Assembly: GCA_903970305.1 (NCBI GenBank)
Contig: CAJCID010000266.1
Location: forward strand, 1-64,000
DNA from: Rhodospirillales bacterium
Lineage (GTDB): Bacteria > Pseudomonadota > Gammaproteobacteria > Burkholderiales > Burkholderiaceae_D
DNA: 64,000 nucleotides
Reading direction: 5' to 3'
The notes under the pieces are model-generated. The model saw nothing but the letters and a program-made list of their open reading frames with translations. It ran no database searches and was not told where the DNA came from. Shown here one piece after another: positions 20,358-21,632 of this stretch. Numbering within the stretch: the stretch's first letter is position 1; every line of letters starts with the position of its first letter. The position numbers and the translations under genes are program-made.

Positions 20358-21632
20358 GTGAACAAGAAATTGGACGATGGATCGGTGAGGGCCGACCGAG
20401 GGGGCGAGGGTCGCACGCTCGCCCGGGCCGTATGGGCGCCGCCCCTGGCGCCCGCTCCCCCGCGAAATCTCTGCACCGACTGTGGCATCTCCCGGACCAG
20501 CACGCCCAAGCGCTGTGCGAGTGCCTGTCAATTCATCCAGCCGGACTATCCCGGGATGGAAGAGCGCGTGCAGGGCCGTAAGCGCGATCCGGCGCGCCCG
20601 GACGAGTTGTTCTTCGGGCCGCATCAGGAGATCCTGCGCGCGTCCTTGGCCGAACCTCGGCCCGGCGCACAGTGGACAGGGATCGTCACCCGCCTGGGCG
20701 AGCGGCTGCTCGAGTCGCACGGCGTCGACGCGGTTCTGACCATGGCGCCGGATCCGAACGATCCCTGGCGTCCGATCCCCGTGCTCGTCACCGAAGCCCA
20801 GGGCATGTCCGCCTGCCGCGGCATGCGCATGGGCTACGCCCCTCTTCTTGCGCTCCTCGAGCCGGCGCGCCGTCTAGGTTATCGGCGTCTGGCCGTCATC
20901 GGCATCCCCTGCCAGATCTATGCCCTACGGGCCCTCGAGGCGGAACTCGGACTCGAGAAGCTCTACGTGATCGGCACGCCCTGCTCGGACAACACCACGA
21001 CCGAACGCTTTCACGAGTTCCTGGGCTTGCTCTCGGACGACCCCGACTCGATCACCTATCTTGAGTTTCGCGCCGATTATCACGTCGAGTTGCGGTTCCG
21101 CGATGGCCGTCAGAAGGCGATCCCTTTTCTGCAGCTGCCGCTCTCGAAGCTGCCAGCCGATTTCTTTCCGCTGACCTGCCGCACCTGCGTGGACTATACG
21201 AATGTCTTGGCTGATATCACGGTCGGCTATATGGGTGGCGAGGGTGAGCAGTGGCTCCTCGTGCGCAATTCGCGAGGCAAGGAGCTCCTGGAACTGCTCG
21301 GTGACGAGATACGCACCCGTGCCTGCGGTAGTGCGGGCAACCGTAAAGGACCGGTGAAGGGCTTTCTGGCCAACGTCGAGCGTGCAGCAGGAGGACTGCC
21401 GCTACGGCGCATGCCCGACTGGGTGCGACCCATCGTGGGCTGGCTGATGCCCCGGATCGGCCCCCGGGGACTGGAATTCGCGCGCGCGCGCGTGGAGATG
21501 AAAGCGGTCGAGTCGGTCATTCATCTGCGCCGCGAGCAGCCTGGACGCATCAAGCACATGGTTCCAGAGCACGTCTGGGAACTCGTCAAGCCCTATGGTC
21601 TGGATAGAGCCTTGGGGGAGAAGAAGCTCTAG
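20358..21632 (+). CDS. FrhB/BciB-type iron-sulfur flavoprotein (divinyl chlorophyllide reductase-like)
   Basis: A 424-residue protein of the coenzyme F420 hydrogenase beta-subunit family. The N-terminal cluster NLCTDCGI...KRCASAC (Cys39, 42, 53, 57) fits a 4Fe-4S site. It then follows the order known from BciB and 7-hydroxymethyl-chlorophyll a reductases: ELFFGPHQEI, AQWTGIVTRL, AVIGIPCQIYALRAL, GLEKLYVIGTPCSDN, CRTCVDYTNVLADITVGYMGG and a C-terminal RIGPRGLEFARARVEM. These match my memory of BciB closely, but non-photosynthetic homologues exist. It starts with GTG; AGGGA lies about 8 nt upstream. Its TAG overlaps the oppositely oriented stop of the next gene. Ferredoxin-dependent reduction is expected; the substrate is open. 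Confidence 0.78.
   Translation: MNKKLDDGSVRADRGGEGRTLARAVWAPPLAPAPPRNLCTDCGISRTSTPKRCASACQFIQPDYPGMEERVQGRKRDPARPDELFFGPHQEILRASLAEPRPGAQWTGIVTRLGERLLESHGVDAVLTMAPDPNDPWRPIPVLVTEAQGMSACRGMRMGYAPLLALLEPARRLGYRRLAVIGIPCQIYALRALEAELGLEKLYVIGTPCSDNTTTERFHEFLGLLSDDPDSITYLEFRADYHVELRFRDGRQKAIPFLQLPLSKLPADFFPLTCRTCVDYTNVLADITVGYMGGEGEQWLLVRNSRGKELLELLGDEIRTRACGSAGNRKGPVKGFLANVERAAGGLPLRRMPDWVRPIVGWLMPRIGPRGLEFARARVEMKAVESVIHLRREQPGRIKHMVPEHVWELVKPYGLDRALGEKKL

Follow-up and report, generated by a model that had tools for sequence, protein, structure and literature searches.

Two alternative 8-vinyl reductases, BciA and BciB, are known from bacteriochlorophyll biosynthesis; BciB, which some purple bacteria possess, has FAD and [4Fe-4S] clusters as cofactors and ferredoxin as electron donor, and chlorophyllide a oxidoreductase (COR) has a third 8-vinyl reductase activity (PMC7242693). 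For BciA as for BciB, the preferred substrate is 8-vinyl chlorophyllide (PMC4214422). The DNA analyzed here is a stretch of 64,000 nucleotides (the window) from a genome deposited as Rhodospirillales bacterium (assembly GCA_903970305.1). At positions 20358-21632 it contains a gene that, as assigned by homology and context, very probably encodes BciB, the FrhB-family 8-vinyl reductase of phototrophic Burkholderiales. The grounds established in this work are the protein family, eight conserved cysteines, a phototrophic host, strict co-occurrence with reaction-center genes, and, in relatives, a position of the gene near bch genes. This assignment settles an apparent oddity, namely that of an orphan-looking reductase gene that would belong to the pigment pathway while the other photosynthesis genes lie on other contigs.

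Identification of the Gene and the Encoded Protein

The translation of the open reading frame (ORF) contains AQWTGIVT, GLEKLYVIGTPCSDN, DYTNVLADITVGYMGG, and RIGPRGLEFARARVEM, all four motifs quoted by an earlier sequence-only reading of this DNA. Pfam analysis of the product identified FrhB_FdhB_N (E 2.9e-21) and FrhB_FdhB_C (E 1.2e-26) domains (Table 1), both in a single chain of about 400 amino acids as in BciB, and almost 100 full-length homologues were found, each at least 62% identical. Because of these Pfam matches and homologues, we consider 20358-21632 a real gene. Alignment started at about residue 25 in most homologues and at residues 3-17 in several, in keeping with the GTG start. 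The window protein was the only FrhB_FdhB_C protein found in its genome.

Table 1. Features of the bciB gene and its product, in window coordinates.
Feature	Position	Strand	Remarks
bciB, putative 8-vinyl (proto)chlorophyllide reductase	20358..21632	+	GTG start, 424 aa; Pfam domains, full-length HCAR match, reaction-center co-occurrence; presumably ferredoxin-dependent
N-terminal cysteine motif C39-x2-C42-x10-C53-x3-C57	20472..20528	+	Presumably ligates the first [4Fe-4S] cluster; 97 close homologues aligned with HCAR and Thiodictyon
FrhB_FdhB_N domain, residues 94-167, including AQWTGIVT	20637..20858	+	Pfam PF04422
FrhB_FdhB_C domain, residues 176-313, with C185, C209, C274, and C277	20883..21296	+	Pfam PF04432

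The top match of the window protein in the PDB was the 7-hydroxymethyl chlorophyll a reductase (HCAR) of Arabidopsis, a plant enzyme related to BciB (5dqr; E 1.1e-68, residues 27-415), followed by F420-linked enzymes with partial matches (approximately residues 86-318; E 2.6e-16 or weaker). The predicted fold also ranked six HCAR chains first (E 2e-28), in a model of modest confidence (mean pLDDT, the predicted local distance difference test score, 65.8) that is uninformative on the geometry of the N-terminal cluster, with residues 1-47 scoring below 50; the alignment used for this prediction left out one row, from a plasmid collection. A tree was built from 25 sampled close homologues, HCAR, a homologue from Candidatus Thiodictyon syntrophicum, and four distant FrhB proteins. 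The close homologues, HCAR, and the Thiodictyon protein formed one side of a split with 100/100 support and the four distant FrhB proteins the other, so that the window protein groups with the chlorophyll-type reductases and apart from other FrhB proteins. Support was weaker (82/86) for separating the close homologues from HCAR and Thiodictyon, and as HCAR, Thiodictyon, and the outgroup sit on long branches, the tree is to be read with caution.

Co-occurrence With Reaction-Center Genes

The source genome comprises 4.33 Mb in 329 contigs, of which C266 carries the window. Another contig, C196, holds pufL, pufM, pufC, bchY, and bchZ, all above curated cut-offs, and on this gene content the host is a phototroph; a non-phototrophic host was rejected. 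The sequence-only reading had described the reductase as lacking other photosynthesis genes, and had proposed inspecting the whole genome for bch and puf genes. Its description holds within the window, where no photosynthesis genes were found (the flanks of the gene were examined from about 13.8 to 29.3 kb of the window, and the genome was searched with PF00124 and BchZ), and fails for the genome as a whole. The orphan look is thus due to the 64-kb view, since the puf and bch genes are on other contigs. A second member of the genus (G001) carries both a window-type gene and reaction-center genes, which makes a binning error less likely.

Distribution was analyzed in two sets, 398 genomes sampled phylum-wide and, separately, 60 relatives. 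Close homologues (in the phylum sample, E below 1e-160 and identity of at least 64%) were present in 15 of the 398 genomes, all of them among the 31 having reaction-center genes (Fisher p 5e-19); among the relatives, the gene occurred in four genomes and the reaction center in seven, including those four (p 7e-5; neither value is corrected for kinship). All genomes with the gene, 15 of 15 and 4 of 4, are therefore those of expected (bacterio)chlorophyll makers. Six further matches among the 398 genomes, one of them in a phototroph, were distant (25-32% identity, E 2.6e-10 or weaker), and those that were placed in the tree fell outside the close-homologue clade.

These data bear on the alternative that the gene encodes an FrhB-type F420 or ferredoxin reductase with no tie to photosynthesis, present in a phototroph by chance. 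FrhB domains are widespread, and the immediate neighbors of the gene in the window (a chemotaxis receptor, a ROK-family kinase, and a two-component system) have no pigment link, as this alternative would predict. However, every close homologue in the sampled genomes belongs to a phototroph, the remaining matches are of the distant kind just described, and in some relatives the gene lies inside a bch cluster (see below). On co-occurrence and bch linkage this explanation was rejected as extremely improbable, and the suggestion of the sequence-only reading that the enzyme might be an uncharacterized reductase of another substrate found no support; its other option, a BciB in a phototroph, was supported.

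Relation to BciA-Like Genes

A protein found in two genomes (G035 and G051) is presumably BciA-like, judging by its motifs; it is a lead that no library named. Using it as query, with a match threshold of E below 1e-80, 37 reaction-center genomes were examined: 18 had the window-type gene, 13 had the BciA-like gene, and none had both (Fisher p 1e-5). The window-type gene hence occurs where this motif-recognized BciA is absent, and the two genes exclude each other cleanly across the phylum.

A same-clade chlorophyll-related reductase whose site of action is elsewhere on the macrocycle, as with plant HCAR and the C7 hydroxymethyl group, has also to be weighed. An N-terminal cysteine pattern unlike that of HCAR is a point in its favor, but mutual exclusion with BciA-like genes among phototrophs is what would be expected of alternative 8-vinyl reductases, and a bacteriochlorophyll a maker would not be expected to contain 7-hydroxymethyl chlorophyll as a substrate. 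We consider a different position of action very improbable.

Linkage to bch Genes in Relatives

The loci L071, L076, and L077, all of Comamonadaceae type, have 73-76 bases between the end of the gene and a downstream bchI on the same strand; bchO, crtE, and bchC-X-Y follow farther along. The distance to bchI is about 1 kb in G036, and in seven other loci bch or crt genes lie within about 6.4 kb of the homologue. Most loci showed no photosynthesis gene of the query set in the flank, and a separate location such as that in the window is therefore common. A search of a plasmid collection for BciB relatives found one, that of Candidatus Thiodictyon syntrophicum, which is 38% identical and has bchO, bchD, and bchI nearby on a puf-bearing plasmid.

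Conserved Cysteines and a Possible Displaced Ligand

Eight cysteines (C39, C42, C53, C57, C185, C209, C274, and C277) are invariant in an alignment of 97 close homologues (the window protein and 96 others, including a few near-duplicates), enough for two [4Fe-4S] clusters. Seven of them, all except C53, are common to the window clade, HCAR, and the Thiodictyon homologue, and C185, C209, C274, and C277 are also kept in four distant FrhB relatives. C39, C42, C53, and C57 are presumed to be the ligands of the first cluster and C185, C209, C274, and C277 those of the second, an assignment to two clusters that draws on the published cluster count. At position 45, HCAR and the homologue from the purple sulfur bacterium Thiodictyon have a cysteine, keeping CxxCxxC at the N-terminus, whereas the window clade has CxxCxxS plus an extra cysteine: serine occupies position 45 throughout the close homologues, none of the 97 having a cysteine there, and the new cysteine, C53, lies eight residues beyond it in all of them. 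We give even chances to the proposal that in this purple-bacterial BciB subclade position 53 has taken over from position 45 as the site of an N-terminal [4Fe-4S] ligand (CxxCxxC-x11-C to CxxC-x10-C-x3-C), possibly altering cluster properties or the electron donor. The cysteine comparison called for by the sequence-only reading agrees with a BciB-type enzyme in which one ligand position is displaced, in common with all close homologues. The moved cysteine is the sole feature of the gene that merits a specialist's attention.

Points Weighing Against the Assignment

Several observations count against BciB. The gene lies apart from the contig holding puf and bchYZ, the third N-terminal cysteine is unlike that of HCAR, and HCAR, the nearest characterized protein compared (35% identical), acts on a different chlorophyll group. 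We found no functional test of any member of the purple-type clade. Six of the 37 reaction-center genomes lacked the window-type gene and also a full BciA-like one: G087, G201, G209, and G225 (one genus), G154, and G398, all of which have pufL and pufM. These few phototrophs, seemingly lacking either 8-vinyl reductase gene, must use another enzyme, and COR may serve for their 8-vinyl reduction. An 87-amino-acid open frame in G087 matches the end of BciA over 71 residues (66% identity) and is perhaps a remnant.

Finally, no PpsR/CrtJ-type TGTN12ACA site was found upstream of the window gene. Across homologues, 15 of 94 upstream stretches contained the site, where about 5% would do so by expectation (rough p 4e-4 once duplicates were removed). 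As this enrichment is only modest, the site was dropped as supporting evidence. Such sites precede bciB in L051, L072, L099, L101, L106, and others, and several are alike (e.g., TGTCCAATTTATTTGACA).

Other Genes of the Window

Near bciB, synteny with the same-genus genome was limited to the chemotaxis receptor, the ROK gene, and the two-component pair. The short ORF 8-355 on the minus strand encodes four cysteines spaced much like those of high-potential iron-sulfur proteins (HiPIPs), and its N-terminus is signal-like. The sequence-only reading had reported a HiPIP gene in the window, a claim that is weak, as this ORF was the only candidate found and scored 14.1 bits, below the Pfam HiPIP cut-off of 22. 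Two clear HiPIP genes are present elsewhere in the genome (contigs C238 and C117).

Comparison With Known Systems

By analogy with characterized BciB, the enzyme would hold FAD and two [4Fe-4S] clusters, would receive electrons from reduced ferredoxin, and would reduce 8-vinyl chlorophyllide a at C8 from vinyl to ethyl, a reaction expected to come before that of BchXYZ in the synthesis of bacteriochlorophyll a. BciB is the most likely identity, on the evidence of HCAR, the Thiodictyon homologue, distribution, linkage, and the literature. The window protein resembles FrhB, the beta subunit of F420-reducing hydrogenase, and its kin in both Pfam domains, but matches them in its middle part alone and scores far below the NCBIfam cut-offs (60-68 bits versus 269-475 for the F420-reducing hydrogenase and FpoF models), which places it outside these families. 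HCAR, the top fold match, is alike over the whole length (35% identity for 5dqr) and differs from BciB in being a plant enzyme that reduces another chlorophyll group. The characterized BciB proteins (Synechocystis slr1923 and Chloroherpeton thalassium Ctha_1208) share with the window protein the FrhB family, a length of about 400 amino acids, occurrence in phototrophs, and the role of an alternative to BciA, and the eight conserved cysteines of the window clade would suffice for the two [4Fe-4S] clusters of such an enzyme.
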